Part shown: one piece after another, positions 1 to 54,547 of the stretch
Position numbering within the stretch: position 1 is the first letter of the stretch
How the letters are laid out: each line of letters opens with the position of its first letter
IMG/VR virus record: IMGVR_UViG_3300027749_003047
Coordinates: 1-64,000 of that record
DNA length: 64,000 nucleotides
Strand: one strand, 5' to 3'
DNA from: a virus
Notes under the pieces: model-generated
Told to the model about the DNA's origin: nothing
The model's input: only the letters and a program-made list of their open reading frames with translations
Database searches by the model: none
Translations under genes and position numbers: made by a program

Positions 1-882
1 CCATTCTTTGTAAGTAATGACTTGTTCTTCTGCAATAACAATATTGCGGGCACGTTGATATAACTGTTCACCCGTCCAAGATGGATTAGCCGCACGTAGC
101 TGATCAACATGCCAGTTGTGTTCTCTAATGAATAATGTTTGTATAGACGTTAAATCCGGATTTTCAGTTCCACGGGGATCTCCAAACAAAAATGATCCAT
201 TAACAATGGGACCATATTGTCCGTTGCTAGATGTTAACAATTTGCCAGTAGTGGCGATTGAACCGCCTTCTCGCAATAATACTGGGTTAGTAAATCCACT
301 AACTGGTGTAACACCGGGAGGGTATGCAATACCATAAACTACACTACCATCGATCCATCCAGTTACATCGTTGATTGGTAGTGCAACAATGCCATTGATC
401 CCAGTACCTGCGGCAACCTGCGCACGAGATACAGGAATATGACTACCTGGTGTTAGGTTAGTATCTCCAGCAGGTACTATAACATCGATATTAGCACCGC
501 CAGTTCTTTCACTAGCTAGTTCATGAGTTATGAATTGACCCCATGCATACATGAATCCACTATAGCCAGTTGGATCAACAGTTTCACCTTCATTTACTTG
601 ATCCCATACTACTAAATTACTAACTGTGCGAGCATTGGCTAGATCAGTACGCATAGCATGTAAGCCATCTGTATAGCTGTTTACTGCATTTCGAGCAAAT
701 GGTGCTCCTGCACTATTGCGTAACGGTGCTGTAGGATGGTGCCCAGTTCCGTCGTAGCTTGGCGGCGGCACGCCGTTAAATCCTGCCGCAGGTATTAACG
801 GTAATGGTAAGTTAACCGATACTTGCTCAGGAAATGTTCCAAAACTATAACCTGTTGGTTGTGTCCAGATATTTAAAGGCAT
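1..882 (-). CDS. Animal-type haem peroxidase (3' end outside window)
   Basis: An open frame starts at ATG 882-880 and runs off the left edge, giving 294 visible N-terminal residues. It matches the animal haem peroxidase family (myeloperoxidase/peroxidasin type), which oxidises halides or organic substrates with H2O2. Visible motifs are YTDG and LANARTVSN (about 69-89), WGQFITHEL (114-122, distal His120), FGDPRGTENP (233-242, catalytic-type Arg237 and haem-contact-type Glu240), IREHN (252-256), and the helix ending AEEQVITY. The Asp that esterifies haem in mammalian enzymes is Thr119 here. The proximal His would lie beyond the edge. There is no signal peptide; the first 30 residues (W, PTGY, G, PEQ, LPLP) resemble leaders of phage virion proteins, which is my inference. 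It ends the fibre operon, 11 nt after the preceding stop. Confidence 0.88.
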   Translation of the reverse strand, partial: MPLNIWTQPTGYSFGTFPEQVSVNLPLPLIPAAGFNGVPPPSYDGTGHHPTAPLRNSAGAPFARNAVNSYTDGLHAMRTDLANARTVSNLVVWDQVNEGETVDPTGYSGFMYAWGQFITHELASERTGGANIDVIVPAGDTNLTPGSHIPVSRAQVAAGTGINGIVALPINDVTGWIDGSVVYGIAYPPGVTPVSGFTNPVLLREGGSIATTGKLLTSSNGQYGPIVNGSFLFGDPRGTENPDLTSIQTLFIREHNWHVDQLRAANPSWTGEQLYQRARNIVIAEEQVITYKEW

Positions 883-892
883 AATATTTTTA

Positions 893-922
893 GTTAACCC
901 AAGGCCGCAGCCATTGCCACAG
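893..922. repeat. 30-nt direct repeat, copy 1
   Basis: This 30-nt segment recurs at 1669-1698 with one mismatch. It covers the last codons and stop of the fibre gene ending at 894; both copies encode the same C-terminal end, VAMAAALG followed by stop. It is a likely site for recombination between fibre-tip genes. Confidence 0.85.
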
Positions 923-1643
923 ACAGTGCTCTTAGTGAACTAACAGCTGGGCTGGTAGTTGATAATATGGTGCCACTGGCTGGCAATGTTACTGAACTGT
1001 TTCCTATGAGATTTAAATTCAAATTGTAGCCGCCTGAAGTAACCAAATTCCCACTCAGTGTCACTTGATGGTCTTGTCCATCTTGAATTAGTGTAGTACC
1101 GGCAATAGTTCCAAAGTTTATGTGATTATTATTGGTTATAAAATTTGCCCCGAAATCCCAAGAGTATCCTTTGGCATTTGTTTCAAATCCAGTGGGTGCG
1201 GCGATAGTACCCATGTCTACTGTGAGATTGTTTGTGTTTAACAGTAATGATAGTAAATTTTCGCTTATACGTTGATCATATCCATACACTGTGGTTTGTG
1301 CATCGCCACCGGTGATTTTGTAATTGTTTAAATTCAAATTTGCACTCAGCGACGGTGTAGTATCGCTAGATAATATAGTCTTGGCTTCTAGGTTTACAGT
1401 TGTGGCTGTACCGGTCAAGACCACAGTATTTCCTGTGCTGGTTAGTGTTTTTAACTCTGCATTATTGTTAAGTATGTCTTTGAAAATACCAGTGCCAGTG
1501 CCCAGATTAGTAACACCGGTTATTCCTACACTTTGACTGATAGCAAGAAAATTAGCATTTACCTTGGTAAAAGCACTGCGCAAATCATCGCCTGTGCCGT
1601 CGTTTGCGTATGATCCGATATTAATTTGTAATGGTGCTGTCAT
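894..1643 (-). CDS. Virion fibre protein with NDGTGD N-terminal motif
   Basis: A 249-residue protein, probably a fibre or tail-decoration protein. I place the start at ATG 1643 rather than at the longer in-frame TTG-type extension, because MTAPLQINIGSYANDGTGD then aligns with the starts of its two paralogues at 1924 and 15174, and an AGAGAG element lies just upstream. The N-terminal block (ANDGTGD...LRSAFTKVNANF, about 13-36) is the shared attachment-type motif. The rest is low-complexity, Thr/Asn/Gly-rich beta sequence. It ends in [11 protein letters not shown], nearly identical to the end of the next upstream gene. A GGTAAATA box at 1661-1668 is a weak late-promoter candidate. Exact virion position is unknown. 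Confidence 0.75.
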   Translation of the reverse strand: MTAPLQINIGSYANDGTGDDLRSAFTKVNANFLAISQSVGITGVTNLGTGTGIFKDILNNNAELKTLTSTGNTVVLTGTATTVNLEAKTILSSDTTPSLSANLNLNNYKITGGDAQTTVYGYDQRISENLLSLLLNTNNLTVDMGTIAAPTGFETNAKGYSWDFGANFITNNNHINFGTIAGTTLIQDGQDHQVTLSGNLVTSGGYNLNLNLIGNSSVTLPASGTILSTTSPAVSSLRALSVAMAAALG

Positions 1644-1668: not shown

Positions 1669-15174
<13,506 letters not shown>

Positions 15175-24013: not shown

Positions 24014-24456
24014 GGCACTGATGGCTTGTTGTCTTGTGAAACATCTTTGTTCCAGCTGATTTCCCAACCCTGGAAGTCTGCAGCCAAACAATCAACTTTG
24101 TAGTCTTTGCGTCCGCCCACAACTTCTTGAATGATATTTTTGCTAGTGTTGCGGATTCCGTTCAAGCCGTGTGTCAATTCCAAATTGTTGCCGTCTTTGA
24201 TTCCTCTGCGGTAGTTTGATTCGTTGTGCCAAATATGCAAGTTCATTTGAGCCAACACCACAATGGCTCGAATAGTTTCTGCATCCACTTTGGCATCCGG
24301 ATGCTGGTCCATAATCAACTGTATGTCATGCACGATATCGGCGATCTCTTCACCGTACTCTTTTTTGTAATCTGTAATGAATACTTCTTTAAGCTGTACG
24401 ATGCTCAATCTATCGATCAGCTCGCTAAATGTCTGTAGGTATCTGCGTTCGGTCAT
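24010..24456 (-). CDS. Uncharacterised protein of the sugar cassette
   Basis: 148 residues. FSELIDRLSIVQLKEVFI near the N-terminus, a helical middle with MNLHIWHNESNYRRG (about 79-93), and a C-terminal IRNTSKNIIQEVVGG. I recall similar proteins next to sugar-nucleotide genes in phages and aquatic bacteria but know of no assigned activity. ATGA/overlap junctions on both sides place it in the operon, between an epimerase and the TPP-enzyme half. Confidence 0.65.
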   Translation of the reverse strand: MTERRYLQTFSELIDRLSIVQLKEVFITDYKKEYGEEIADIVHDIQLIMDQHPDAKVDAETIRAIVVLAQMNLHIWHNESNYRRGIKDGNNLELTHGLNGIRNTSKNIIQEVVGGRKDYKVDCLAADFQGWEISWNKDVSQDNKPSVP

Positions 24457-25391
24457 AGGTTTGTAAAGTTCCGGTTGTTGTGGACTATTGTCATCTGATA
24501 TGCTGTAATTAGTTGTTCAATGCCGTAGTCTAAACTAAAAGTGGGATTCCATCCTAATGCTTCCAATTTGGCATTGCTCACTATGTAATTGCGCTGATCA
24601 AAGTCTTTGGCAAACTCGTCCTGCTTGATTGCCAGTTTAGGCACATACTTTTTAATGCACTCTGCAAGTTCCAGCTTGCTTAGGTTAGCAGTAGACAATC
24701 CTACATTATAAGCCTGCCCTCGACACTGGTCGTAGTTTTCAATTATAAACTGAAACGTTTGGGCAATGTCCTGTACATGAATGTAATTGCGTTTAAAGTG
24801 CGCTTCAAACAATACCAAGTATCCATCAGTAACTGCTTTATAAACAAAGTCATTTACCAGCAAGTCTTGACGCATACGTGGACTGACACCAAACACTGTG
24901 GCCAGTCTTAGTGCAACACCGTTGCCATGATACAGCACAGCATCTTCTGCATCGCATTTGGTTTCGGCATATAAACTCAAAGGTTTGAATGGACTATCTT
25001 CGGTAATGATTTCGTCACTTGATCCGTATTGGCTGTTGGTGTTGGGAATGATCAGCTTTTGATCACTGGCCAGTACTTCCACTATGTATCTTATATGCTT
25101 GTAGTTTACATCTCTGGCCAGTTCGGGATTGGCTCGGCAAGCAGGCATTCCCACGATTGCGGCTAGGGGAATAATGATATCATGTTCTTTAACCAATGCC
25201 TGTAGTTGTCTAGTATCTCTAACATCACCTAAGACAAATTTAAAGCCCTGTCTGTTAAATAGATGCAACAAGGATAACTGTTTGTACAACAAGTTATCAA
25301 ATACAGTTACACTGTAGCCCTGTGTTAGTAAATGTTCAGCTAGTGTAGAGCCTAGGTAGCCAGCACCGCCTGTGATTAGTACTCGCTTCAT
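24453..25391 (-). CDS. NAD-dependent epimerase/dehydratase (extended SDR)
   Basis: 312 residues. N-terminal GGAGYLGSTLAEHLL (GxxGxxG Rossmann motif, residues 8-22), acidic residue VFDN after the second strand, PLAAIVG, PNTNSQYGSS for the catalytic Ser/Thr, and YAETKCDAE with the YxxxK pair. The downstream KRNYIHVQDIAQ and YNVG elements are typical of sugar-nucleotide epimerases and dehydratases. Likely substrate is an NDP-hexose, and the gene sits beside two more SDR genes and an RmlC homologue. Confidence 0.87.
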   Translation of the reverse strand: MKRVLITGGAGYLGSTLAEHLLTQGYSVTVFDNLLYKQLSLLHLFNRQGFKFVLGDVRDTRQLQALVKEHDIIIPLAAIVGMPACRANPELARDVNYKHIRYIVEVLASDQKLIIPNTNSQYGSSDEIITEDSPFKPLSLYAETKCDAEDAVLYHGNGVALRLATVFGVSPRMRQDLLVNDFVYKAVTDGYLVLFEAHFKRNYIHVQDIAQTFQFIIENYDQCRGQAYNVGLSTANLSKLELAECIKKYVPKLAIKQDEFAKDFDQRNYIVSNAKLEALGWNPTFSLDYGIEQLITAYQMTIVHNNRNFTNL

Positions 25392-26380
25392 GGCTTGCTA
25401 TTTGGATCAAATTGTTCTTTGTGCGCACGATACCATTCGATAGTATCCTTTAGTGCTTGTTTAATCTCACGCTTTGGTTTCCAGCCTAGCGCATTAATCT
25501 TTTCACTAGATACTAGACGAACTGGAATCATAGGTGCTCGATTGTTAACGTACTCAATTGGGTTAGTATTGCCGTCGGCTTCTTTCATCCACTCAAGTAA
25601 TTGGTTAACGCTGTAGCCTTGACCGTAGCACACATTGTAGATATCATAGGTGTCCACATGCTCTGCAACATACACAATGCCTCCGGCCATGTCGTCTGCG
25701 TGTAGCACATCACGTATTTCTGTACCATCACCCCAAACAGGAATTGGATTCAGCCTGTCCGCCACTTTGCGAATGTTTGCAGGTGTAACATGGCATTTCT
25801 CAAAGTCATACTTGTCATTGGGCCCAAATGCGTTGCTTGGACGAATAATGACGCACTGCATTGGATCATGTATTTGATTACTAAAGAAGTCGCACATCAT
25901 CTCGCCAAAGCGTTTCATAGCACCCACTGCTTTGTACACAGGTACTAGCGGCAAGTTCATAAAGTTGGCGTCTTCTACAGCATACACTGAACCAAGGTCG
26001 CCATTGACGTTTGCTGTGCTGATAAAGATAAATTTACGCACCTTGTTCTTCCAGCTTTGTTCCATTATGTTGTTATTCATCTCAACATTGGGAGTAACAT
26101 GTAATAACGGATTGAACTTAGTATCCAGTGCATTACTAGTGTTAGCCGCGCAGTGTATTACCACATCAATGTCTTGCGACACAAATTTAGCAAAGTCTGC
26201 ATCACGCAGATCACCCTTAACTAGTTCGATAGTTTCCGATCCGTTAAAGTCATTCCGTAAGCCTCTCTGTAGTGTGCTAGCACGTAGATTAGTGAACCCT
26301 TGTTGATACAGCACTCGAAGCACATTGGAGCCAATGAATCCGCTTGCCCCTGTTACCAAAATCTTATCTGTAGTTTTCAT
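25388..26380 (-). CDS. NAD-dependent epimerase/dehydratase with altered YxxxK motif
   Basis: 330 residues of the extended SDR family: VTGASGFIGSNVLR at the N-terminus, VIHCAANTSN, FISTANVNG, and RDVLHADDMAGG. Aligned on the conserved K-x-x-G-E, the catalytic region reads AVGAMKRFGE, so the position of the usual Tyr is Val; a Tyr lies three residues earlier in VPVYKAV. Either the Tyr is displaced by a small insertion or catalysis differs. Overlaps neighbours by 4 nt on each side. Confidence 0.83.
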   Translation of the reverse strand: MKTTDKILVTGASGFIGSNVLRVLYQQGFTNLRASTLQRGLRNDFNGSETIELVKGDLRDADFAKFVSQDIDVVIHCAANTSNALDTKFNPLLHVTPNVEMNNNIMEQSWKNKVRKFIFISTANVNGDLGSVYAVEDANFMNLPLVPVYKAVGAMKRFGEMMCDFFSNQIHDPMQCVIIRPSNAFGPNDKYDFEKCHVTPANIRKVADRLNPIPVWGDGTEIRDVLHADDMAGGIVYVAEHVDTYDIYNVCYGQGYSVNQLLEWMKEADGNTNPIEYVNNRAPMIPVRLVSSEKINALGWKPKREIKQALKDTIEWYRAHKEQFDPNSKP

Positions 26381-27360
26381 TGGCCTAACCTTTGTTTGTA
26401 TGCTAGGATGGTCTGCTTGATACCATCACGCAAGGTTGTTTGCGGAAGTATACCGTATTTCTTTTGACGATCTGGACTTAGACAACGAACAGGATCTCCA
26501 TTCATTTTTGTTTCGTCCCAGACAATGTTCTTAGTTTCACCTGATATTTCTTTATAGCAGTCAACTATAGTCTCAATGGTTTCTTTGATAGTGATGGCTT
26601 CTGCACAACCAAAGTTGATAATATCTTTTACTTCTTTCTTGACCACATCAACACTAGCCTGTGCAACATCATCGCCGAACACAAAGTCACGCCTTGCACT
26701 GCCGTTACCCCAACACACTATATCTTTGCCCTCAACGTTGTACAACTTCCAGACGTTGCTACTGATCACAGTAGCGTCTTGTGCAAAGTTGTCATTGAGT
26801 CCGTAGATGTTGCTGGGACGTATCACAGTCCAGTTGTCCCATCCATACTGTACTTGTAGGCTTTCTAATGTAGCTTCACCCATACGTTTGGTCCACCCCG
26901 GATACCAATCATTCTTACTGGGCACAGTGACCCATACATCTTCTTCACGCATGATCTCTGTAGGTTGGTAAACACCTACACTTGAAAGATAAACAAACCA
27001 ACCGACCTTGGCATCAAATGCGGCCTTGATCATGTTGGTATTGAACATCAACATAGGAAACAAGTAGTCTGCAGGTTGTTTGCTACTACGTGCTGGCGAT
27101 CCTTTTATTCCTGCAATATGCAGTACAATATCAATCGGTTGTTCTTCAAACAGTGACTCGCAGTTGTCCAAATATGTTAGGTCTTTCATTACCAGTATTA
27201 GATTAGAGTATTGTTCTCTTAAGGAAATCAATCCTTCTCCTATATTAATGTCCACTGCATAAACTGCATGAGCACCTTCTTCTAAGCACTTGCGAACCGC
27301 AGGTAATCCCACTAGTCCGTTGGCACCTGTAACGACTATATTTTTATTTTTAAATTCCAT
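26377..27360 (-). CDS. NAD-dependent epimerase/dehydratase
   Basis: 327 residues, the third extended SDR of the cassette. VTGANGLVGLPAVRKCL, VDINIGEG, VLHIAGIKG, VYLSSVGVYQPTE and YPGWTKRMGE, where Tyr and Lys are spaced by one extra residue relative to the classical YxxxK. The RRDFVFGDDVAQASVDVV and IINFGCAEAITIKE segments are those of NDP-sugar dehydratases and epimerases. The ATG is followed closely by MEFKNKNIVVTGAN. Three SDRs in a row suggest a multi-step conversion of one activated sugar. Confidence 0.85.
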   Translation of the reverse strand: MEFKNKNIVVTGANGLVGLPAVRKCLEEGAHAVYAVDINIGEGLISLREQYSNLILVMKDLTYLDNCESLFEEQPIDIVLHIAGIKGSPARSSKQPADYLFPMLMFNTNMIKAAFDAKVGWFVYLSSVGVYQPTEIMREEDVWVTVPSKNDWYPGWTKRMGEATLESLQVQYGWDNWTVIRPSNIYGLNDNFAQDATVISSNVWKLYNVEGKDIVCWGNGSARRDFVFGDDVAQASVDVVKKEVKDIINFGCAEAITIKETIETIVDCYKEISGETKNIVWDETKMNGDPVRCLSPDRQKKYGILPQTTLRDGIKQTILAYKQRLGQ

Positions 27361-28708
27361 GTTGAAGGTCTCTTATTAAATTTTGGTAAGGTTGTGCATT
27401 GATAAATGTAGTCAGATGGTTTCGATTATGGATCAATATATCTTTTACACTAAAATACAATTCGTGAATTTGTTCAAGTGTTAAATCATTTAATTTTTTT
27501 AATTCGTGTTCTATCAGCGCCATGCGCAATTCGGGATCTTGTTCAAGATCGTATTCCTCGTTAATATAAGGATGAAATGTTCTAAACCCTAATTCATGCA
27601 GGTCTTTCAAAGAATTATAATTACCTACATATAAAAACGGTTGAAAGTTTGCTATAGGCCTATATGTCTTTTCCGACATAAAGGGACTATCACCATCGTG
27701 AAATCTTGTTTCAGATACAATATGAATATAAGTGTTGAGATAAAGTTCTTTTTTGTTGTTGTGTGTTGAAAAGTTAGTTTTTTCAGACTGACTCAAAAGA
27801 TGCGTGTCAACTTCCCAAGGCAGTATCTTTACAATTTGTCTAGCCATTTCTGACAGGTCTACATCTTTGTAATAGGTACTCCACGCCCTGGAACTGTCCA
27901 GCACCTGTCGCTCAGTTATCTGTTCAAGGAAACTGAACACATTATGATCTAGCAGATTGTATTTCAATGCTAGGTATGCCAGTGATATTCTGTGTGCGCG
28001 ATTACTTAATTGTCTATTGAAGCACATGAATTTGTGAGGGCGTATTTTATCAGGATTCAACTCATGCTGTTTGACAAAATCGTTCATGTAGCCAAGTCGA
28101 CCTGGTCGAGGCCTTGATGTTATTCTTTCAGCATCTTCTCTAGGAAATAACAAAGGTCCACCAACTACTCTTATACTACAACCAGACACAGCGAATTCGT
28201 TTCCCGCAACTACTATTACATTCTTGCCGTTAATACCTATTGATTGCAATAATGAATCAAACTTCAGTAGGTCTTCTTCGTTGGAGACAGGATCATGAAT
28301 GTAATTTATAACCAGTTTTACTTTGCCAGATCGCAGATGGTTTAACACTTTGGGGGAGATGGTATCGCTGATATTGTAAGTACAACTATTTCCTCCTATG
28401 TTAAATGAGTGATCTTGAAATAGTGAATTTAGTGAAGTGCGTATTTCAATCGGGTAGATGTAGATATCAGCATCGTCCACAATTTGATCCGGATCAACCA
28501 TAGCATGATTTTTAAAATATTTAAAAAAGTTGTTATGCCACCTGAATGGGAACATGTCACTATTCATTAGACTAGTAGCTGTACTTTCTACAGAATCGAT
28601 ACTTGGTATAGAACTTTTGATATGATTGGCCAGTATGGGATGAAGTCCGTTGGACAGCGGTACAGATTGATACCAATTGTCATAAACTATTTTTAGAATA
28701 CTATCCAT
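27350..28708 (-). CDS. Putative glycosyltransferase (phage sugar-cassette family), copy 1
   Basis: 452 residues. The C-terminal third has SETRFHDGDSPFMSEKTY, IANFQPFLYVGNYNSL and LHELGFRTFHPYINEEYD, matching block for block the protein at 29873-31282. The SEKTY...QPFLYVG arrangement resembles the donor-binding end of fucosyltransferase-like enzymes, so a glycosyltransferase role is plausible but not proven. FMCFNRQLSNRAHRI in the middle is another conserved-looking block. It overlaps the adjoining PP-domain gene and SDR gene. Likely target: a host surface glycan or a phage virion or DNA component. Confidence 0.6.
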   Translation of the reverse strand: MDSILKIVYDNWYQSVPLSNGLHPILANHIKSSIPSIDSVESTATSLMNSDMFPFRWHNNFFKYFKNHAMVDPDQIVDDADIYIYPIEIRTSLNSLFQDHSFNIGGNSCTYNISDTISPKVLNHLRSGKVKLVINYIHDPVSNEEDLLKFDSLLQSIGINGKNVIVVAGNEFAVSGCSIRVVGGPLLFPREDAERITSRPRPGRLGYMNDFVKQHELNPDKIRPHKFMCFNRQLSNRAHRISLAYLALKYNLLDHNVFSFLEQITERQVLDSSRAWSTYYKDVDLSEMARQIVKILPWEVDTHLLSQSEKTNFSTHNNKKELYLNTYIHIVSETRFHDGDSPFMSEKTYRPIANFQPFLYVGNYNSLKDLHELGFRTFHPYINEEYDLEQDPELRMALIEHELKKLNDLTLEQIHELYFSVKDILIHNRNHLTTFINAQPYQNLIRDLQHGI

Positions 28709-29322
28709 TTGCCTGTGCCGTAATGCGGATACTTAGATTTGTAATGGTAGTGTACTACATCATGGGGTACGCTACGTTTACCATTCCATGTGGTATCTGT
28801 TGGAGTATATGTTGATACTGCATTGTCTTCCACTACAAAGTATAATGGTAAATCAAAGTTTCTAGCATACTTGTGTATCTCGTAGAATATACCGCTTTCA
28901 AAACTCATGTCACCAATAAAGCACCATACTTTATCTGTAGAACCTGCACGTTTGATTTGCTGAGCAACACCCAGTGCAACGGGCAGTGTTCCGCCAACTA
29001 TGGCACTGCTGTAAAATTTTTCATCAACATTGCAAATACTAATTGACTTTCCTTTGAGAATTTCTGCAGTTATCCATTGAGGATCTAGGCCTTTAAGCAG
29101 TGCATGATAATGACTGCGCCAGGTACTGAACACCCAATCAGTTGTATTAACACGTTTAAATATTTCGATCAAACTGTGTTCATTGCCGTTTGACAAGTGT
29201 ATAGGTCCTCGAACTCGAGCACCTTCCCATAGAGCTATGATCGAATCTTCAAACTTGATCAAACTATCTGGTGTATGATCGATATCTCGCACGACGGGAT
29301 ACTGGTCTAAATTAGTTATCAT
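28693..29322 (-). CDS. TPP-dependent enzyme, pyrophosphate-binding half (E1-alpha-like)
   Basis: 209 residues of the PP domain of thiamine-diphosphate enzymes (E1-alpha type). STWRSHYHALLKGLD, SAIVGGTLPVALGVAQ, then the cofactor motif FIGDMSFESGIFYEIHKYA ending at VEDNAVS, which replaces the usual GDG by GDM but keeps the spacing to the second Asn-containing segment. SNGNEHSLIEIFKR at 44-57 supports E1 folding. No E1-beta domain is fused; the partner PYR domain is 4.7 kb downstream at 23474-24013. ATGA overlap with the RmlC gene. A two-carbon ketol transfer onto a sugar nucleotide is a reasonable but unproven role. Confidence 0.82.
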   Translation of the reverse strand: MITNLDQYPVVRDIDHTPDSLIKFEDSIIALWEGARVRGPIHLSNGNEHSLIEIFKRVNTTDWVFSTWRSHYHALLKGLDPQWITAEILKGKSISICNVDEKFYSSAIVGGTLPVALGVAQQIKRAGSTDKVWCFIGDMSFESGIFYEIHKYARNFDLPLYFVVEDNAVSTYTPTDTTWNGKRSVPHDVVHYHYKSKYPHYGTGKWIVF

Positions 29323-29864
29323 TTGTCACGCCCTTGTATTATAGGATCTTTAGTAGGCCATTCTATATTGTAAGCCGGGTCATTCCATTTTATTACACCC
29401 TGATTATTTTCATTAACATAGTCGCCTTGATAAAATAGGCTGTAGTGAAAAATGCAATCTGTCAGTGCATAGTGCCCGTTAGCAAATCCCGGGGGTACCA
29501 GTACTTGGTCTCTGGTCTTTTCACTTATGATGTAAGATTCCCATTTGCCAAATGTATCGCTGTCTTGTCTTACATCAAGCACTACTAGATAGATATCGCC
29601 GACTAGAGCTTGAACCAGCTTCCAAGTTTTGTCATCATAGTGTAGTCCACGCAGTACACCTTGATATGATTTTGAAAATCTAGTATGAACTTGCACATCG
29701 TTTGGTAATATTTGGTTAACAGGGTGCGCAGTAGAATGATAGGTAGTAAATATCTCTCCCCTGTACTCTCTATAAACAGCAGGCGAGTACACAGGGACTT
29801 CTTTACCAAAGGTATTTAGATATGCTGTGTCTACTGTTTGCCAGTTACTGTCTTTGTAATTCAT
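29319..29864 (-). CDS. rfbC: dTDP-4-dehydrorhamnose 3,5-epimerase-like protein (RmlC family)
   Basis: 181-residue cupin of the RmlC family. YREYRGEIFTT, HTRFSKSYQGVLRGLHYD with the catalytic His, WKLVQALVGDIYLVVLDVR, TFGKWESYIISEKTR, VLVPPGFANGHYAL and IKWNDPAYNIEWP are all in family order and length. It epimerises C3 and/or C5 of a 4-keto NDP-sugar. No separate RmlA, RmlB or RmlD-like trio is complete here, so it may act on a host-derived keto-sugar or with the neighbouring SDRs. Confidence 0.92.
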   Translation of the reverse strand: MNYKDSNWQTVDTAYLNTFGKEVPVYSPAVYREYRGEIFTTYHSTAHPVNQILPNDVQVHTRFSKSYQGVLRGLHYDDKTWKLVQALVGDIYLVVLDVRQDSDTFGKWESYIISEKTRDQVLVPPGFANGHYALTDCIFHYSLFYQGDYVNENNQGVIKWNDPAYNIEWPTKDPIIQGRDK

Positions 29865-29872
29865 GGAAATAT

Positions 29873-31282
29873 TTATTCGTTGGTTCGTTGGTGCAGATAT
29901 TTTATTAATTCAATACTGCTAGGATCGTTCTTGTGTAGTGTCAACAACAGATTATGATTGTGTTCTAATATAGACTCCATCTGCCAATACCAATCATGCA
30001 GTTGGTCTTGAGTCATAGCACATAGTCTGGCAATTTCTTTATAGATCATATGTACACGACGACCTTCGTCAGATTCAATATCGTAGCTTTCGTCTATAAA
30101 CGGACTAAAGGTTTTGAATCCCAAACTTCTTAACAAAGCTAATGCGCCTGGATATGCTACAAATAAAAACGGTTGGAAATTTGCAATTGGCTTAAACACT
30201 TTTTCAGTAAGTGACTTGTGCTCTCCGTGTACAAAAGTTTCTGTGCAGATATAGAAATAACTGTCAGCATGTGGCTTGGCATCTTTGTCAGTCCATGCGC
30301 TTACTAGCTCATGACGATTGTCTCTTTCACTTTGTAGGACATGCGGCGTTGAATTGCATAGCTCTTTTACTGTGTCAGTGTTTATGTCAAACTGATAAAG
30401 ATTCCTATAATAATCTAGCATACGATCATTAACTTGTAGTTTAGTCAAGCAAGACCAATCTCCCTGACTTAATAATCCATCTGTGGCCATCTTATACAGC
30501 AGAGCCAGTCTATGATTTCGAGAGTTTCTAATTTTAAATAAGAAATGATTTGGTCTTTTAAAATATCTGCTGTTTCTAAATTGCTCAACGCTCAGACGGA
30601 AGCTAGGGTTCTCAAAGTAAAACATAGATGCTTCGCTCATTACATAGCACCAGTTGTGTACTTCTAGTCTACGTTCGTCGGGTCTAAACCATGATTCGTA
30701 TACTTCTCGACCATTGAACGTGTTAAACGCTAGGATAACTTGTTCCTTAGGTATTCCGCTGTATCTAAGAACTTCATGTAAATTTATATAAGTTTCTTTT
30801 TCTATAAAGTTCTCTTGTCCATAATCTATGAATATGATAGCTCTTCTTGATTGTGCATCTTGTAAGGCTTCTTCACTCATGTGTTTCCAAAAGTATTCGC
30901 CATTTAGTTTGTTGCCTGGCCTTAAATTAACTCCTACAAATTCATGCAGATGCGGCCCTAGTTTTATAGGGTAGATATATCGATTGACCTGATGCTTGCC
31001 AAGGTACAAAGAGTTTTCAATTATTTGTACCTTATTAGAGTATACTCCCCTATCAAGATGCGAGCCGTTGTGTCTAATACTGTTTGGCCAATCACCGAAT
31101 TTTTTATTAAAGACAGATCGTGTTACATCACTGGCACCTGGATCTGTAAAACAATTTTCTCTGTCTTTGTTTGAATATTGACTGTTAAAGTAATTTAAGA
31201 TAGCGTATTCTGGCATCAATGCATTTGGCAAGATGTAGTTAGGAAATACGTAGTCGTAGAAAAAATGCAATTGATATTTCAT
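29873..31282 (-). CDS. Putative glycosyltransferase (phage sugar-cassette family), copy 2
   Basis: 469 residues, paralogous to 27350-28708 over the C-terminal half: ICTETFVHGEHKSLTEKV, IANFQPFLFVAYPGAL, SLGFKTFSPFIDESYDIE, followed by a helical tail. The N-terminus starts with MKYQLHFFYDYVFPNYILP, rich in aromatics. Glycosyltransferase assignment rests on the context and the EK...QPFLFV block, so it is moderate only. ATGA overlap with the radical SAM gene upstream. Confidence 0.6.
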   Translation of the reverse strand: MKYQLHFFYDYVFPNYILPNALMPEYAILNYFNSQYSNKDRENCFTDPGASDVTRSVFNKKFGDWPNSIRHNGSHLDRGVYSNKVQIIENSLYLGKHQVNRYIYPIKLGPHLHEFVGVNLRPGNKLNGEYFWKHMSEEALQDAQSRRAIIFIDYGQENFIEKETYINLHEVLRYSGIPKEQVILAFNTFNGREVYESWFRPDERRLEVHNWCYVMSEASMFYFENPSFRLSVEQFRNSRYFKRPNHFLFKIRNSRNHRLALLYKMATDGLLSQGDWSCLTKLQVNDRMLDYYRNLYQFDINTDTVKELCNSTPHVLQSERDNRHELVSAWTDKDAKPHADSYFYICTETFVHGEHKSLTEKVFKPIANFQPFLFVAYPGALALLRSLGFKTFSPFIDESYDIESDEGRRVHMIYKEIARLCAMTQDQLHDWYWQMESILEHNHNLLLTLHKNDPSSIELIKYLHQRTNE

Positions 31283-32640
31283 AGCTGTTGACAGTAATTG
31301 TAAAATTTTACCATCTCGGGAAATGTAGCCGAGAAGTTTGTGCCACGTCTGCGATCATGCTCGTCAACAAACGCTACAAAGTCTTTTTGATTCTTTACAG
31401 TATCTGGTTCATCGTGTGATTGAAATATTTCGTATATTCGTTTCATACGTTCGACTTCAAGACGATCAAATCCTTGGTATGTTTCTGTTGCAGTGCCTTC
31501 TGCATAAGACTGCACAAAGTCCACATGCTCTTTGATTGTTGTGGCAAAGTCCTTTGTTAGAATAAAGATTGACTGATGTGGAGGCCACCGCAGATACGGT
31601 ATGTCTAATAGTACAGCAGTTTGCTTATATTCTGGTTTGTAATATTGTGTTTTGAGTCTCAATACATCTTGCAAGAATTTGGTATAGCTGGGAACGCTTA
31701 GGGCATTGTAGGTGCTCATGATTGTAAACCCTACACTTGGTACTTCTTTTAGCACACGTTCAATATTATCGATCCATTGAGCATAGTCCATACCATTGCG
31801 TATATACTCTGCCTGAGCGCCATATGCCTCTGCACTAGTAAAGATTTTGAATCTTTTTACTTTGCCTTCCAACAGTTTAATCTTTTCAATAAACTTATCT
31901 AGTATGTCACTCGGTGGACACATGTTGGCATTAATACTAAAGTCCAAGTTTGGATTGGGATTAGCAATTATGTAATCTAGAATCTTAAATGTATTTTTGT
32001 TCAGTAAAGGTTCACCGCCAGTGATACGAAAATGCTCTAGCTCACGATAAGCAGTAGGCCACCATTCCCAAAATGCATCAACATAGGGATTGTCGTCCTT
32101 GTGTGGTATGGGCATCTGATCTGTTTGTTTCAGCCACTCCAGGTTGTTGAACTTGCCCGATGTGGGATATGGTCCAAACTTTTCAATTTCTTCCATCCAA
32201 CGTGAGCTGACATTGGGCGCACAATAACTGCATTTAAAATTACACACATTACCAAAGCTAACTTCTACGTAGCTGGGTACAACATCATGGTCCCAGGGTT
32301 TACTGGCTATGTCTTGAATATGAGGTGCCGCCCACTTGTCGGCACTTTTAAAAATTCTATCACTTAGTGAGTTACTGTTGTCTTCAACACGCCAGCAGTA
32401 GTCACACTCTGCCGGACGTTCGCCACTCAGCATCATCTTACGTTGTAGTTTTTTAAACTTGGTATTGTGTAACGCTGATGGATTGGCTGACAGTTCTTCT
32501 AACGGTATCTTGTGAGGTGCCGGATGATGGCAACTATGGTTATGCCCAGTTTGGAGATGAAGCGTTACCTGCTTCCACTTAGCGGCACAAAATGATGGAC
32601 TGACACTATTAAGTTCATCTCTAAACTTGTTTATGTCCAT
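31279..32640 (-). CDS. Radical SAM protein with twitch-like domain
   Basis: 453 residues. The [4Fe-4S] motif is CNFKCSYC in SFGNVCNFKCSYCAPN (about residues 131-146), followed by the GGEP motif in FRITGGEPLLN. Further cysteines lie N-terminal (FCAAKW, SCHH, ECDYCW), as in twitch/SPASM-like enzymes of viral and marine genomes, and could bind an auxiliary cluster. Substrate unknown; a peptide or sugar substrate is possible. It sits between a T4-like hypothetical and the glycosyltransferase-like genes, overlapping both. Confidence 0.85.
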   Translation of the reverse strand: MDINKFRDELNSVSPSFCAAKWKQVTLHLQTGHNHSCHHPAPHKIPLEELSANPSALHNTKFKKLQRKMMLSGERPAECDYCWRVEDNSNSLSDRIFKSADKWAAPHIQDIASKPWDHDVVPSYVEVSFGNVCNFKCSYCAPNVSSRWMEEIEKFGPYPTSGKFNNLEWLKQTDQMPIPHKDDNPYVDAFWEWWPTAYRELEHFRITGGEPLLNKNTFKILDYIIANPNPNLDFSINANMCPPSDILDKFIEKIKLLEGKVKRFKIFTSAEAYGAQAEYIRNGMDYAQWIDNIERVLKEVPSVGFTIMSTYNALSVPSYTKFLQDVLRLKTQYYKPEYKQTAVLLDIPYLRWPPHQSIFILTKDFATTIKEHVDFVQSYAEGTATETYQGFDRLEVERMKRIYEIFQSHDEPDTVKNQKDFVAFVDEHDRRRGTNFSATFPEMVKFYNYCQQL

Positions 32641-46411: not shown

Positions 46412-46440
46412 ATTATACTATCATTTGTAAATACTGTCAA
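46412..46440 (-). promoter_or_regulatory. Perfect sigma70 consensus promoter (tRNA operon)
   Basis: TTGACA (46440-46435), 17 nt, TATAAT (46417-46412). Drives the tRNA and probably the genes down to 44325. It abuts the plus-strand radical SAM start codon at 46440. Confidence 0.9.
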
Positions 46441-47396
46441 TGAACTTCGCAATCATTCCTTTCAAAGACATAACGCATTTTGGGCAACAAACAATGTTGG
46501 ATCGCCCATTATTTAACATAAGTTGGATCCTAGGTAGATTTTGTAATTACAAATGTAGCTATTGTTGGCCCTATGCCCGAAGCGACAATTTGGATTACCA
46601 AAGTTTAGAAGTCTATAAGACTACAGTCGACGAGATAAAACGTCAAGCTCGTTTGAACGGATTCACCCAATTTCACTGGAGCTTCTCAGGAGGTGAACCT
46701 ACTGCGTACAAACAGTTGCCCGAATTGATCAAACATATAGATGAATTAGAAAGTCCCTACCAAAGTATACATATGACTACCAATTTGAGTCCGGGACCCA
46801 GCTGGTGGAAAAACTGGTGTAGCATCACTGATTGTCTACAGCGCCGCAGTATTACAGCCAGCTTTCATGCAGAGTTCGCCAAGGAGCACGAGTTCGGTGA
46901 CAAGTGTTTACAGTTAATGAACGAGCGGGTTCATGTAACTGTTAATCAAGTTATGGTGCCAGAACTGTTCTTTGAAACACTAGAACGCTGTGAACGATTT
47001 CGAGCTCGTGGAATTAATGTAACACTTAAACCACAAAGCAATGACAGTGCCACCGCCATAGTGGAAGGCTACACAGCTGAGATGGTTGATATAATGCAAA
47101 ACGATTTTGAACAGCAGGAAGGTTATCAAATCCGTTTAATGGATGGTGATAAAAATTATTTTATAGATCAAGCAGAACGGTTTAATGCACTGGGGTTTAA
47201 TCAATTTGCCAATTGGACTTGTAATGCAGGTTATCAGAGTGTTATAATAAAAGGTACGGAAGTCAAACGTGCTTACAGTTGCCACGAAGCCGCACTGGGC
47301 ACGATAGAAAAATTTACTTTGTTTTCTGTGCCACAAAAATGCGTGACTACTAGATGTGTTAGTAGTGCGGACAGCAAGATACCAAAATGCAGATAG
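46440..47396 (+). CDS. Radical SAM protein with C-terminal Cys-rich region
   Basis: 318 residues. LGRFCNYKCSYCWPYAR carries CxxxCxxC (about 36-43), SFSGGEPTAYKQL the GGEP motif, and IHMTTNLSP the third conserved segment. The C-terminus has cysteines in NWTCNAGYQSVII, AYSCHEAALG, KCVTTRCVSS and PKCR, which suggests a SPASM/twitch auxiliary cluster; such enzymes often modify peptides or small metabolites. No SD is evident, and TTGTAAATACTGT ends 2 nt before the ATG, a pattern shared with the gene at 51424. The 3' end overlaps the methyltransferase gene by 10 nt. Confidence 0.88.
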   Translation: MNFAIIPFKDITHFGQQTMLDRPLFNISWILGRFCNYKCSYCWPYARSDNLDYQSLEVYKTTVDEIKRQARLNGFTQFHWSFSGGEPTAYKQLPELIKHIDELESPYQSIHMTTNLSPGPSWWKNWCSITDCLQRRSITASFHAEFAKEHEFGDKCLQLMNERVHVTVNQVMVPELFFETLERCERFRARGINVTLKPQSNDSATAIVEGYTAEMVDIMQNDFEQQEGYQIRLMDGDKNYFIDQAERFNALGFNQFANWTCNAGYQSVIIKGTEVKRAYSCHEAALGTIEKFTLFSVPQKCVTTRCVSSADSKIPKCR

Positions 47397-47980
47397 ATAC
47401 AAACCATTTACACCATTGGATGCAGGCCATCCGTCAAAGCCCGGACCCTATGCGTACTATGGATGCCTTTTGGTCGGGGCAATTAAAAAGCAAAGAATGG
47501 TTGATTGATTGTCTAGATGAGCATGTGCATTTTGCATCTAGCATAGACATCTTCGGCGGCTGGGTTGGTACACTTGCCAGCATGTTATTTCAGAGCAACA
47601 TTCCCATTACTACTATTCGCAGTATTGACATTGATCCAACCTGCGAACCTATTGCTACGCTAATGAACAAGGGTGAAGAAATTGAAGGTCGGTTCAAAGC
47701 GTATACGGCAGATATGTGCGATGTAATTTCTGTTGCAGATATTATTATTAATACTAGCTGTGAACACTTAACACAAGCACAATACGATAAATGGTTGGAT
47801 AGAATGCCTAACGGTAGTTTGATTATTATCCAAAGTAATGATTATAATATCCCCGAGCATGTGCGGTGGCATAAATCATTTGATGAATTTAAGGAAACTT
47901 GTGGATTACATTTTCTTTGGGGCGGCGAAATGAAATTACCCCTGTACACACGTTACATGATCATAGGAAGGAAGCCTTAA
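47387..47980 (+). CDS. Class I SAM-dependent methyltransferase-like protein
   Basis: 197 residues. SGQLKSKEWLIDCLDEH, then IDIFGGWVGTLASMLFQ (glycine-rich SAM loop), IRSIDIDPTCEPIA (acidic residue after strand 2), INTSCEHLTQ and LIIIQSNDYNI. I recognise this as a family common in T4-like aquatic phages, often annotated as methyltransferase; the substrate is not known. Overlaps the upstream radical SAM gene and precedes the AdoMet-decarboxylase-like gene without a gap, so three AdoMet-using folds are in one operon. Confidence 0.8.
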   Translation: MQIDTNHLHHWMQAIRQSPDPMRTMDAFWSGQLKSKEWLIDCLDEHVHFASSIDIFGGWVGTLASMLFQSNIPITTIRSIDIDPTCEPIATLMNKGEEIEGRFKAYTADMCDVISVADIIINTSCEHLTQAQYDKWLDRMPNGSLIIIQSNDYNIPEHVRWHKSFDEFKETCGLHFLWGGEMKLPLYTRYMIIGRKP

Positions 47981-48337
47981 GTGTTAGATCATTTGCACCT
48001 ATTAATACAAGGTACTGCTGAAACACAATTGTCTGAATTAGATGTTAAAAACATTCTACTAGATATTGTATCAACTATTGACATGGAAATACTAGGAGGG
48101 CCATATGTCTATAGATCAGAAGTTTTAGATAACGAAGGATACACAGCACTCATGGCTATAACTACTAGTCATATTGTCATGCACACTTGGGATACTGGTC
48201 TAATACAACTAGATGTTTATAGTTGTAAAAAATTTAATGTACCAGATGTTGTTAAAGTTTTGAATAAGTTTAATATTTTAAATATTAAAACTAAATTCCT
48301 TGATAGGTCAAATGGCTTTATAGATTTAGCAAATTAA
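47981..48337 (+). CDS. AdoMet decarboxylase (SpeD)-like pyruvoyl enzyme
   Basis: 118 residues, GTG start directly after the previous TAA, with GGAAGGAAG as SD. DHLHLLIQGT at the N-terminus, ALMAITTSHIVMHTW and LIQLDVYSCKKF match prokaryotic S-adenosylmethionine decarboxylase proenzymes. Ser63, His68 and Cys82 fall at the positions used for self-cleavage and catalysis in the T. maritima enzyme (Ser63, His68, Cys83). The usual Glu before the cleavage Ser is Thr62. It would give decarboxylated AdoMet for polyamines, but SpeD-fold proteins are also known to have become ornithine or arginine decarboxylases, so the substrate is open. Confidence 0.83.
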   Translation: MLDHLHLLIQGTAETQLSELDVKNILLDIVSTIDMEILGGPYVYRSEVLDNEGYTALMAITTSHIVMHTWDTGLIQLDVYSCKKFNVPDVVKVLNKFNILNIKTKFLDRSNGFIDLAN

Positions 48338-49478
48338 GTTTTGACTTATCGGGTGTGCGATTAAATTTATATCGACTAGGAGGGCTATCCGGTAAGGCTA
48401 GTCCTTTATTTTTAAACACATCTCTGCGTATAATCTGATGTAAGAAGTTTGTAATACCGTCGGGTACAAAGTTACACCAAGGTCCGCTACGCAATTCTTC
48501 CATATCAATATTGGTTTCATCGCACCAGCTGATTAATCGCACAATTTTATCTTCAATCTTAACCATAACATGATAGATATTATTGTCTGCTTCTATGATT
48601 CGTTCAAACTGTTTACTATGATCCTTGCACCATTGCTCCGCACGTTTGTATAAGTTGCTAACAAACGGTTGTTCGGTGCTGGCATTACGTCCTATTTCTG
48701 CACCATTACGTATGCGGAAATTTTTAGGAGTCCAAGGATTACTAGTAATCTCAGTTAGTATGTAATCAAGCTCACTGAAGTCTACCATAGTATAACTAAT
48801 GTAACCTATCTTGATATCTTCACGGTGCATGTTTTCAATAGCACTAACTTGTTTACGTCTTACAGTTTCGTGATCGATGTAACTTGGATGATTAAGCCCA
48901 ATGTTAACACCTGCAAGTCCAGCTTCAACACATTTATGAATAAAATCGCTGTCATTGAAACGTATGCCATTAGTCATTACACTAACATCCATTTCGGGAT
49001 CTAACTCACGGATAGCTGTTATCAATTCTGGAAAGTCTTTGCGTAAGGTACTTTCAGCACCGGCGAGGATGATTCTATGTACTCCATCCTCGCCTACCGG
49101 CATATCTCGTATTTGATCGAGCAATTCTTCTATAGAAGGGTCGCGGGCATCGTTTTCTGGTAAATGGTAACAATGTGGGCATTCTAAATTACAGCGGTCA
49201 CTACCTTCGATAAGTACTCCGCCATTAAAATTAAAATCTGGATTATCCTGGGTGTAATATAGATTAGCATAAAACTCATAGTCAGATTCGATCATATGAT
49301 GGCTAATACCATGTATGGGACATGACTTGGCTATAAACACCTGATTATCTTTATGGTAGCGCCATGCTGGTATATGTCTATGGCAATGATGGCATAGGCT
49401 TACTGTTGGATCTAAAACTGTACCATTTATACTTGCTAGTAATCGGTCTATGTTAGTTTGATTAAAGCCCATTAACAT
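48318..49478 (-). CDS. Radical SAM protein, COG1964/Tes-like architecture
   Basis: 386 residues. N-terminal treble-clef-like segment LCHHCHRHIPAW...KSCPIHG (about 28-56), then IEGSDRCNLECPHCYHLP with the radical SAM CxxxCxxC, IILAGAESTLRKDFPEL, VMTNGIRF and a C-terminal region with a further Cys cluster. N-terminal CxxC...CxxHG before the SAM motif is the layout of the COG1964 group that includes the tetraether lipid synthase Tes; the phage protein is shorter and its substrate unknown. Convergent 20-nt overlap with the SpeD-like gene; TAATG with the gene upstream. Confidence 0.82.
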   Translation of the reverse strand: MLMGFNQTNIDRLLASINGTVLDPTVSLCHHCHRHIPAWRYHKDNQVFIAKSCPIHGISHHMIESDYEFYANLYYTQDNPDFNFNGGVLIEGSDRCNLECPHCYHLPENDARDPSIEELLDQIRDMPVGEDGVHRIILAGAESTLRKDFPELITAIRELDPEMDVSVMTNGIRFNDSDFIHKCVEAGLAGVNIGLNHPSYIDHETVRRKQVSAIENMHREDIKIGYISYTMVDFSELDYILTEITSNPWTPKNFRIRNGAEIGRNASTEQPFVSNLYKRAEQWCKDHSKQFERIIEADNNIYHVMVKIEDKIVRLISWCDETNIDMEELRSGPWCNFVPDGITNFLHQIIRRDVFKNKGLALPDSPPSRYKFNRTPDKSKLNLLNL

Positions 49479-51394
49479 TACATAACTCTCCCACTAGCGG
49501 TAGTTGTAGGTATAGGTAAAATAGGAATGACTGAGATCTTATTGCCTTTATATGAATCTTCTATGTCGGTTTCAACATAAGGATTATTAATATTTGCAAT
49601 ATCAGTTTTAAGCAAATATTTTTGATACATTTGGTCATGCATGTGACTAACCATGTAACGCCTATTAACCGAATATGAGCATGATAAACGTTCCCATCTA
49701 TCAATATCTATATCTGATTCTAGAATGAATGGATATGATTTGCTTTCATCCAACATAAAAGCATACTGTAATTCTATGACACTTGGATCTATAGTATGAA
49801 ATAAGTTTCCAACGGTAACTCCGAGGTCTATAAAATGATTCTTGTTTTCAAATATATCGTCCATACCGTAACTTTCGGGCATAGTCAATGCAACTACGTT
49901 CTTCCATTTTTCACCTACAGGCATTTCACCGTAAGTGAAATAATTTACAAATATTTCTTCTACATCATTTAGTATAGGACCGCCTATAATGTCGTTCTTA
50001 ATTGCGTTGTATAATGCATCATAATATTGACGGTATGGAACATTATGCATTTCATACAAGTACCGTGAAGTAAGTTGTGTTATTCCTAAATAATGAAATT
50101 GACTCATCATCCAACTGTACGCTAATGAATCTGCAATATCTTGGCTGGTAGCAGTATTTGTGCTCGACACCATGGCAATATTTTCATGACTACTATCTTC
50201 GTCGTCCCATATGCGTTCTTCGGGACTACGATACATATCTTTAGGATATATCAACTTAATTCCGTATTTGTTTCTATACTCTTCACTGTCCATTTCACTA
50301 TTAGGAATAACAGTAGCAGGATAAGTTTTAACGCTGTCGTGTTGTCCTAATTCCATTAATCTCATTAGGCCATTAATATAAGTGTCCTTGGTTTCTAAAG
50401 GTAAACCTAAAACCATCTCTGTGTAGTATCTAATACCGTGTTTACGGCATAAGGCATAAGCACGTTCTAAATTGTTCATACCCATGTTAATTCTTTTCAC
50501 AGCATCTAGTGTGGGCTGGTGCATGCTTTGTATAGCCATTTCTAAACCGTAAGTCCATGCTTGAATAATCTTTTCCATTTCAAAACAATGCTCATTTAAA
50601 TTTTTAGCATGGTTAAAGGTTACACGTCTAATTTTGCTGTTGGGTGCTTCTATAGCTCTGCGGATCATCCACGCTACTTCGACATCACGTTCTTTCATTA
50701 TACCTGAGTTAGCATCGATCACAAACATCCAATGTATGTTATGTGTTATAGCCCATTTGATTTCTTCCTCAACCCTATGTAGGTTAAAGTTTTTTAGTTT
50801 GTTAAGATAGTCGGCTCCCCAGCCGCAAAACGTACAGTGATAAGGACATCCTCTGTTAGTTTCTAGCATCATAAACCAACTAATATCTGGATTGTCTGCA
50901 ATAATTTTATCAAAGAACCCTGTAGTGTAAGGGCTAGGATAATTTTCAATATCTGTTTGTCTCGGGTTATTCCAATATCTCGGAATAGTCTCGTTATTAA
51001 GATTCATCTTTAAAAGATTAGCCCATGCAACTTCTCCCTCGCCAAACATTGCAACATCGATAAAATCGTATTTGAGCCATTCTTCATTAACACTAGGACC
51101 ACCAAACACTATTAGACAGTTTGGAAAACGTTCTTTTAATTTCTTAGCTAAGGTTAGATTCCATTTATGATTCCATACGTAGCAACTAAATCCAATGATA
51201 CTAGGGTCGATGATCTTTTCAATTACATTTTTTTGTCTATCTCTCCGCCAAATAACATCTTGCAATTTATAGTTATTTTTCACATAATCAAATTGGTTTG
51301 CATAGGCCCAAATACATCCTACACTGAATGGTAGGTAGTGCTCATTAGAGGGTCCGGAAGTAATTTCAGTTTGTATAAGATAGACATTTTTCAT
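49478..51394 (-). CDS. B12-binding-domain radical SAM protein
   Basis: 638 residues. The N-terminal 150 residues form a Rossmann-like B12-binding-type domain (LPFSVGCIWAYA, IIGFSCYVWNH, LIVFGGPSVN, VAMFGEGEVAW). They are followed by ETNRGCPYHCTFCGWGADY with the [4Fe-4S] CxxxCxxC, then FVIDANSGI, GLEMAIQSMHQPTLDAVKR and ETVLGLP-type motifs of the BchE/RumMT family. These enzymes methylate carbon or phosphorus centres or rearrange rings. No DxHxxG is obvious, so cobalamin may be bound base-off or not at all. The C-terminal about 200 residues are unique. Confidence 0.87.
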   Translation of the reverse strand: MKNVYLIQTEITSGPSNEHYLPFSVGCIWAYANQFDYVKNNYKLQDVIWRRDRQKNVIEKIIDPSIIGFSCYVWNHKWNLTLAKKLKERFPNCLIVFGGPSVNEEWLKYDFIDVAMFGEGEVAWANLLKMNLNNETIPRYWNNPRQTDIENYPSPYTTGFFDKIIADNPDISWFMMLETNRGCPYHCTFCGWGADYLNKLKNFNLHRVEEEIKWAITHNIHWMFVIDANSGIMKERDVEVAWMIRRAIEAPNSKIRRVTFNHAKNLNEHCFEMEKIIQAWTYGLEMAIQSMHQPTLDAVKRINMGMNNLERAYALCRKHGIRYYTEMVLGLPLETKDTYINGLMRLMELGQHDSVKTYPATVIPNSEMDSEEYRNKYGIKLIYPKDMYRSPEERIWDDEDSSHENIAMVSSTNTATSQDIADSLAYSWMMSQFHYLGITQLTSRYLYEMHNVPYRQYYDALYNAIKNDIIGGPILNDVEEIFVNYFTYGEMPVGEKWKNVVALTMPESYGMDDIFENKNHFIDLGVTVGNLFHTIDPSVIELQYAFMLDESKSYPFILESDIDIDRWERLSCSYSVNRRYMVSHMHDQMYQKYLLKTDIANINNPYVETDIEDSYKGNKISVIPILPIPTTTASGRVM

Positions 51395-53949: not shown

Positions 53950-54547
53950 TTACAATTAGTCCTAAGCTCATGAGGTATCGATCTTTATCCGATCTGTTAG
54001 AACCTTCGTGCCATACATCATAATCGTTAATATGCAAAGTCCCCACCCCAACACCTGTTTCAGCTGTCCACGGATCGGAACGATTCTTGTCTGTGTAAAA
54101 CACAGTTGCTTGTTTAGGATCGTTGTCTTCTATAAAATAGACTAGTGATGTTAATATTTGTAGTCTAGTATCAATATGCGGTTCAATTATAAAACCAGGT
54201 TCGTCTTTGAGAAATTGTCCTCCCCAAAGCGTTGAATTAAACATTTTATTGTTCGACCAACCATCCCACATATTTTGTATTCCTGGAAATAGCTCATACA
54301 TAGTGTCTATGATCTTTCTTTTAACTTCGTCTGACGACAAGTAGTTTACAATTTCCTGTAAGATAATACTTTTAGGATAAGGAAGTGCCGACCTGCACAG
54401 GTGTGGATCACCAGCACGTTCTTCATAGTCAGCATGGTTAACCCATTCTTCTTTTTCAAATTCGGCTAACAACTGTGCGTAACTATACGGTGTCGTTAAC
54501 TTAATTTTACATAAGTTGTTACGGACTTTGATTATTTCGAAATCCAT
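53939..54547 (-). CDS. 2-oxoglutarate/Fe(II) oxygenase
   Basis: 202 residues from ATG 54547, with GGAG 5 nt upstream. The jelly-roll metal site is IEPHIDTRLQILTSLVYF (HxD) and YDVWHEGSNRSDKDRYLMSL (distal His and the Arg that binds 2-oxoglutarate). RSALPYPKSIILQEIV and NSTLWGGQFLKDEPG frame the core. Distinct from the tandem family at 58.5-62.2 kb. Directly follows the halogenase gene with a 16-nt overlap, suggesting they act on the same molecule. Confidence 0.85.
   Translation of the reverse strand: MDFEIIKVRNNLCKIKLTTPYSYAQLLAEFEKEEWVNHADYEERAGDPHLCRSALPYPKSIILQEIVNYLSSDEVKRKIIDTMYELFPGIQNMWDGWSNNKMFNSTLWGGQFLKDEPGFIIEPHIDTRLQILTSLVYFIEDNDPKQATVFYTDKNRSDPWTAETGVGVGTLHINDYDVWHEGSNRSDKDRYLMSLGLIVNVK

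Follow-up and report, generated by a model that had tools for sequence, protein, structure and literature searches.

A full animal-type haem peroxidase domain in a long fibre-like protein of large phages

What is an animal-type haem peroxidase doing among the tail genes of a large virus? The window, the 64,000-nucleotide stretch analyzed here (bases 1-64000 of a 133,387-bp IMG/VR record), begins with an open minus-strand frame of 294 codons that runs from an ATG at 882 to base 1. Its translation matches the Pfam family PF03098 (An_peroxidase) with E = 1.5e-45 and a score of 156, well above the cut-off of 25 bits, over profile positions 3-273 of 530. This agrees with the original prediction, which had recognized an animal-type haem peroxidase at 1-882. 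The frame contains the following features:

1..882 (-): 5' part of the fibre-peroxidase gene, 294 codons; the contig end cuts the gene at base 1, and the contig L013 continues it to aa 387
760..882 (-): N-terminal tag, aa 1-41 (MPLNIWTQPTGYSFGTFPEQVSVNLPLP...), first strands of He_PIG domain 1; the tag is common to peroxidase-free members of the family
1..759 (-): N-terminal half of the inserted haem peroxidase domain, aa 42-294, PF03098 positions 3-273
520..537 (-): distal motif GQF-I-T-H-E, with Gln116 at 535-537, Thr119 at 526-528, the catalytic His120 at 523-525 and Glu121, at the position of a calcium ligand, at 520-522
343..363 (-): calcium-loop motif T174-G-W-I-D178-G-S180
160..174 (-): R237-G-T-E240-N241, comprising the catalytic Arg, the second ester residue Glu and an Asn at the position of the myeloperoxidase (MPO) sulfonium Met

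Because base 1 of the window is also base 1 of its record, the gene is truncated by the end of the contig and not merely by the edge of the window; the remainder was looked for at the opposite end of the 133-kb contig and is absent there. A second IMG/VR contig, L013 (265,680 bp), shows 100% DNA identity to the window across 10,882 bp and prolongs the frame to aa 387, which extends the PF03098 coverage to profile positions 3-370. The added segment includes ALRFGHSIVSGAQDR, which carries the proximal His331, and no frameshift lies just outside the window. With His331 present and the frame open in L013, the domain is broken neither by loss of the proximal histidine nor by an early frameshift, the two defects that the original prediction had named as fatal to it.

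The remaining catalytic residues are likewise in place. The predicted distal His120, Arg237 and Glu240 are all found in the window frame, as is Gln116. The distal Gln and His (G-Q-x-x-x-H) are shared by the window and every aligned copy, and Arg237 and Glu240 form the Arg-x-x-Glu motif. When 12 phage copies were aligned with 39 bacterial ones, no sequence deviated at the His, Arg, Glu or proximal His, and 49 of the 51 kept the Asn partner of the proximal His. Among 13 aligned phage copies, the distal His, Arg, Gln and Glu and the proximal His-Asn pair are invariant, and every phage copy retains the His, Arg, Glu, proximal His and Asn wherever its sequence reaches those positions. The Asn corresponds to Asn410 in the related contig L006 and is also present in other relatives; for this exact phage the available sequence ends before it, at aa 387 in L013.

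Two residues that attach the haem, the ester Asp of mammalian enzymes and the sulfonium Met of MPO, are different. In the published signature, GQxxDHDx, the first Asp forms the haem ester and the second binds calcium (PMC4420034). As anticipated from the window, the ester Asp is replaced, with Thr119 at its position; Thr is found there in all 12 phage copies and Asp in all 39 bacterial relatives. The sulfonium Met is absent as well, with Asn241 at its position. Some branches of the superfamily also lack the ester Asp (PMC4420034), so Thr119 leaves membership in the peroxidase-cyclooxygenase superfamily intact. Relative to the family signature, Thr119 is a deviation that may lower or alter activity.

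To these comparisons we added structural modeling. An AF2 model of the peroxidase domain, based on an alignment of phage and bacterial relatives, reached a pLDDT of 89 and a pTM of 0.90 (the 13 phage rows alone gave a pLDDT of 32), and the peroxidase fold is confidently predicted. The best PDB match in Foldseek is 8s6c, the peroxidase of cyanobacterium TDX16 (TM 0.84/0.90), followed by Dictyostelium peroxidase A, MPO and lactoperoxidase (LPO).

Relatives were identified at 26 loci from viral contigs, and a profile-based scan returned essentially the same set. The window itself shows only the N-terminal tag of the He_PIG fibre family. In L006 and L008, at 90-94% identity to the window, the N-terminal tag, the He_PIG domains and a conserved C-terminal domain are all present. 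The L006 protein has 1,397 aa and, where the two overlap, 94% identity to the window; it matches PF03098 at aa 42-536 (profile 3-530 of 530, E = 3e-114), followed by He_PIG domains and the conserved C-terminal domain. The 17 complete ORFs measure 1,344-1,639 aa and combine a peroxidase insert of ~530 aa with He_PIG Ig-like domains and the conserved C-terminus. No other part of the protein is as conserved as the peroxidase, whose mean pairwise identity is 0.6-0.9 vs 0.2-0.7 elsewhere. The original prediction had described a stand-alone peroxidase; in the relatives it is instead an internal domain of a ~1,400-aa protein. An auxiliary metabolic gene, that is, a free cytoplasmic enzyme, was also considered and rejected, as every complete copy is fused into a fibre protein.

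The position of the insert can be defined by comparison with family members that do not carry it. In peroxidase-free members, the tag is joined directly to the VISGxLPPGL strand, mostly with a spacing of 34-39 aa from the start of the tag, and peroxidase carriers have 526-533 extra aa at this junction. The He_PIG match is unbroken in peroxidase-free relatives (aa 9-86 on profile 7-89; aa 18-88 on profile 14-96), whereas after the peroxidase insert it begins only at profile 28. The peroxidase is thus nested inside the first Ig-like (He_PIG) domain. The N-termini of L075, L076, L090, L093-L095 and L101 carry another small insert close to the tag ('GTTDFTKIGAPxNTVGTxFTA'), which indicates that the region accepts other inserts.

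The peroxidase is also variable in its occurrence. Scans with the C-terminal domain yielded 362 related stretches and then 339, and the best 80 of each were taken. In this sample, which is biased toward close relatives, the peroxidase is present in 18 of 117 distinct ORFs with a start and absent from 99. The contigs L006 and L036, of which only L006 has the peroxidase, agree at 92% in the opening 120 bp of the gene and at 97.25% in 4,727 bp of downstream sequence. Identities within the gene are discordant: L006 and L008 agree at 98% in the peroxidase and 58% in the C-terminus, L014 and L016 at 96% and 57%, and L017 and L019 show the reverse pattern (89% and 98%). This discordance indicates that the peroxidase module shuffles between backbones. 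An unusually large number of contigs start or end inside the peroxidase domain (L007, L009, L013, L030, L033, L034, L200 and the record of the window), which would fit an assembly confused by nearly identical copies from different phages. Among those of the 99 peroxidase-free ORFs that exceed 980 aa, the insertion slot holds only small extra domains, with the exception of the subtilase of Agrobacterium phage Atu_ph07. Comparable pairs of phage peroxidases have dN/dS values of 0.06-0.21 (median 0.16), and the domain is under purifying selection.

With respect to origin, a long stem with support of 100/100 separates the phage copies from the bacterial ones. Their clade is placed among sequences of lake cyanobacteria, mycobacteria and Alphaproteobacteria, with more than one possible donor group; MAGs of lake Synechococcus and lake Mycobacterium are among the closest bacterial relatives. 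On plasmids, the matches listed were ordinary bacterial peroxidases with at most 37% identity.

The surroundings of the gene point to the tail. Its predicted position beside tail genes is supported; in the window, these neighbours are:

894..1643 (-): upstream gene in the same run, with weak baseplate-wedge similarity at its N-terminus (phrog_958)
1670..1924 (-): T4 gp9/gp10 N-terminal domain (PF07880, above the cut-off); phrog_677, baseplate wedge/tail fibre connector
1924..15174 (-): giant ORF of 4,416 aa, a presumed fibre, upstream in the same run

The neighbouring genes of L006 similarly match tail-fibre and virion structural families. The statement that the peroxidase ends the operon could not be upheld: the end is not visible in the window, and in L006 a 194-aa ORF (L006:14191-14775) has a 4-base overlap with the end of the fibre-peroxidase gene. 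This ORF has no match in Pfam or PHROG and could encode a fibre partner or chaperone. In line with the original prediction, no signal peptide is apparent. The L006 contig also carries a T4-type gp23 with 68-73% identity to large phages of the Phosso, CBB, GAP32 and PA5oct kind. No T4-type gp23 was found on the record of the window or on the L013 contig, so the window is called T4-related on the basis of its gp9/10 domain and of L006.

The conserved C-terminal domain provides a link to virion proteins of cultured phages. It is homologous to AUZ95088.1 of Atu_ph07 (24% identity, E = 3e-15), which carries Peptidase_S8 and He_PIG domains, and to an annotated S8 peptidase of Sinorhizobium phage Phosso (XYS97278.1); a scan with the Atu_ph07 C-terminus matched only Atu_ph07 itself. 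By gene counting from gp288, gp292, gp293 and gp327, which are named in PMC6102473, AUZ95088.1 is gp329. In the Atu_ph07 cluster CDS 284-329, many virion proteins were detected by mass spectrometry (PMC6102473). The protein gp329 is the last CDS of this virion cluster, and its link to the peroxidase fibre is distant. Judged from these homologies, a virion location appears well supported for the backbone, and we infer that the peroxidase form would be located there too; the predicted virion association of the peroxidase protein is probably correct. Overall, we consider it rather probable that the frame at 1-882 is the beginning of a tail- or whisker-fibre gene from a large T4-related phage, and that its product has a complete peroxidase domain inserted in a loop of the first Ig-like domain, is displayed on the virion, is driven by H2O2 and acts on the host surface.

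How might such a protein function? The fibre protein would be loaded with haem in the host cytoplasm and assembled into the virion. After release, environmental or host-derived H2O2 would drive an ordinary peroxidase cycle (compound I/II). One-electron oxidation of phenolic or tyrosyl groups would be preferred over chloride, because a single ester residue (Glu240) remains and the sulfonium Met is absent; Br-, I- and SCN- might also be oxidized. The most likely benefit would be a local change to host surface polymers or proteins at adsorption, with the barrier loosened or the fibre locked on. A surface-acting tool in adsorption is our best guess because relatives bear a protease on the N-terminal side of the same backbone, and the subtilase of the two rhizobial jumbo phages would be another enzyme that attacks extracellular material. 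On the full proposal our opinion is evenly poised: a virion with a fibre-borne oxidoreductase would use ambient H2O2 to oxidize host surface material in adsorption, the peroxidase being a third chemical class of virion enzyme, next to hydrolases and lyases, and an exchangeable domain in an Ig loop.

Other origins and roles were weighed against this proposal. The closest non-phage relatives are bacterial and several contigs break within the domain, both of which might point to a bacterial gene, an assembly chimera or a host gene misjoined to a phage contig. Such an error is hardly credible here and is refuted for the family as a whole by the 18 distinct single-ORF fusions, which come from many metagenomes and share one insertion point, by the separate phage clade with its private Asp-to-Thr change, by the recovery of the same sequence in two assemblies (the window and L013), and by the T4-type gp23 on the L006 contig. 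Loss of the ester Asp from the whole phage clade could also mean that the domain is a structural relic, retained as a bulky spacer or carbohydrate-binding module after catalysis was lost. The higher conservation of the peroxidase than of the rest of the protein, its low dN/dS and the invariant distal and proximal residues of the 13 copies make this very improbable.

Two further possibilities keep the enzyme active and assign it a different task. Light-driven H2O2 occurs in lake habitats, and the lake Synechococcus and Mycobacterium MAGs among the nearest relatives, together with the intact catalytic residues, would suit a protective role in which the fibre peroxidase clears H2O2 from the vicinity of the particle or of the newly infected cell and spares virion or host the oxidative damage caused by photochemical H2O2 in surface water. 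We consider this unlikely, since the few enzyme copies that the fibres of one virion could carry would scavenge H2O2 poorly next to a soluble catalase, peroxidases require a reducing donor, and both the display on an Ig fibre and the replacement by a protease in relatives better match surface modification. The enzyme might instead be a source of HOBr, HOI, HOSCN or HOCl, with damage to the envelope of the host or to rival microbes as the result: its fold relatives MPO and LPO make such acids, a superfamily member from Rhodopirellula chlorinates and produces hypothiocyanite (PMC10204396), and the halide-binding Gln116 is conserved. Against this stand the Asn241 in place of the sulfonium Met and the change of one ester Asp to Thr in all phage copies; in MPO, the sulfonium link enables chloride oxidation, which depends on it (PMC5437232). 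A hypohalous-acid weapon is therefore quite improbable, and oxidation of the host surface remains our preferred function.

Several other genes on the record were recorded alongside the peroxidase. At 54532-56100 (-) the window encodes a flavin-dependent tryptophan halogenase (PF04820, E = 3e-93) whose closest matches in phages, at 29-34% identity, are halogenases of cyanophages; that one phage has both this enzyme and a peroxidase may be coincidence. A nucleotide-sugar epimerase run and several radical-SAM genes at 24453-32640 (-) and 46440-51394 suggest that the phage synthesizes or modifies sugars. Beyond the window, L003:11746-19493 (about 95,746-103,493 of the record) holds a bacterial-looking cluster of a CHASE2-adenylate/guanylate cyclase, a FecR-domain protein and a curlin-repeat protein, and L004:5132-7042 (about 109,132-111,042 of the record) encodes a phage DnaK/Hsp70 (PF00012, E = 1e-255).

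We searched for precedents in phage databases and in the literature. No phage in INPHARED and no family in PHROGs matches the peroxidase. BFVD gave no phage match; its strong matches are an Orpheovirus haem peroxidase, an alpha-dioxygenase of the giant virus Yasminevirus and one nameless entry. The open-access literature yielded nothing relevant on phages together with haem/heme peroxidase or peroxidase domain, and the word 'peroxidase' is absent from an overview of jumbo phages (PMC7824862) and from a review of virion-associated depolymerases, which lists hydrolases and lyases (PMC5380687). The virion enzymes described as opening a way through surface polysaccharides belong to these two classes. 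A full animal-type haem peroxidase in a long fibre-like protein of large phages, mostly known from environmental DNA, thus appears undescribed in phages. Neither the enzyme family nor the notion of an enzyme carried on a fibre is new; what is new, as far as these tools show, is the peroxidase-fibre combination, its nesting, the presence/absence polymorphism and the clade-wide Asp-to-Thr change. If our reading is true, some phages would attack or anchor to cells via oxidation, and infection would be linked to H2O2, light and the supply of haem. Pairs of nearly identical phages, one carrying the peroxidase and the other lacking it, offer a natural comparison, and the Asp-to-Thr change at the haem-linking position is a natural active-site change that is directly testable.

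Comparison with known systems places the phage enzyme most closely beside the bacterial short peroxicins and cyanobacterial peroxidases (8s6c; loci L113-L180), which share the full domain, the distal His, Arg and Glu, the proximal His-Asn pair and the calcium loop, with about 40-55% identity between loci L113-L180 and the phage copies. The bacterial relatives have the ester Asp (Thr in 0 of 39), whereas the phage copies have Thr (12 of 12) and are sited inside a viral fibre protein. MPO and LPO share the fold (TM about 0.8), the Gln-x-x-x-His and Arg-x-x-Glu motifs and the proximal His; in contrast to them, the phage peroxidase lacks the ester Asp and the sulfonium Met, is not secreted and is viral. 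The Orpheovirus haem peroxidase (A0A2I2L5A1) belongs to the same superfamily and also has a viral carrier, but it is a 596-aa protein of a giant virus of amoebae, for which no fibre architecture is reported in BFVD.

Peroxidasins contain Ig domains. Like the phage protein, they combine a peroxidase with Ig-like domains in a single extracellular, fibre-associated protein; theirs are I-set Ig domains in tandem, while the phage protein has He_PIG domains with the peroxidase nested inside the first of them, and kinship is implied for the peroxidase domain only. As peroxidases of the extracellular matrix (PMC3533774), peroxidasins may serve as the closest working analogy for an Ig-fibre peroxidase. 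Among phage proteins, the depolymerases of tail fibres and spikes are likewise enzyme modules of a tail protein, patchy and exchangeable; the known ones are hydrolases or lyases (PMC5380687), whereas the phage peroxidase is an oxidoreductase. Finally, gp329 of Atu_ph07 and XYS97278.1 of Phosso, both from rhizobial jumbo phages, share the homologous C-terminal domain and an enzyme on its N-terminal side, and gp329 has He_PIG repeats as in the peroxidase fibre. They differ in carrying a subtilase in place of the peroxidase and in the tag, which is not conserved; the Atu_ph07 subtilase does lie N-terminal of the Ig repeats, but given the divergent tag the two enzymes occupy the same slot only approximately.
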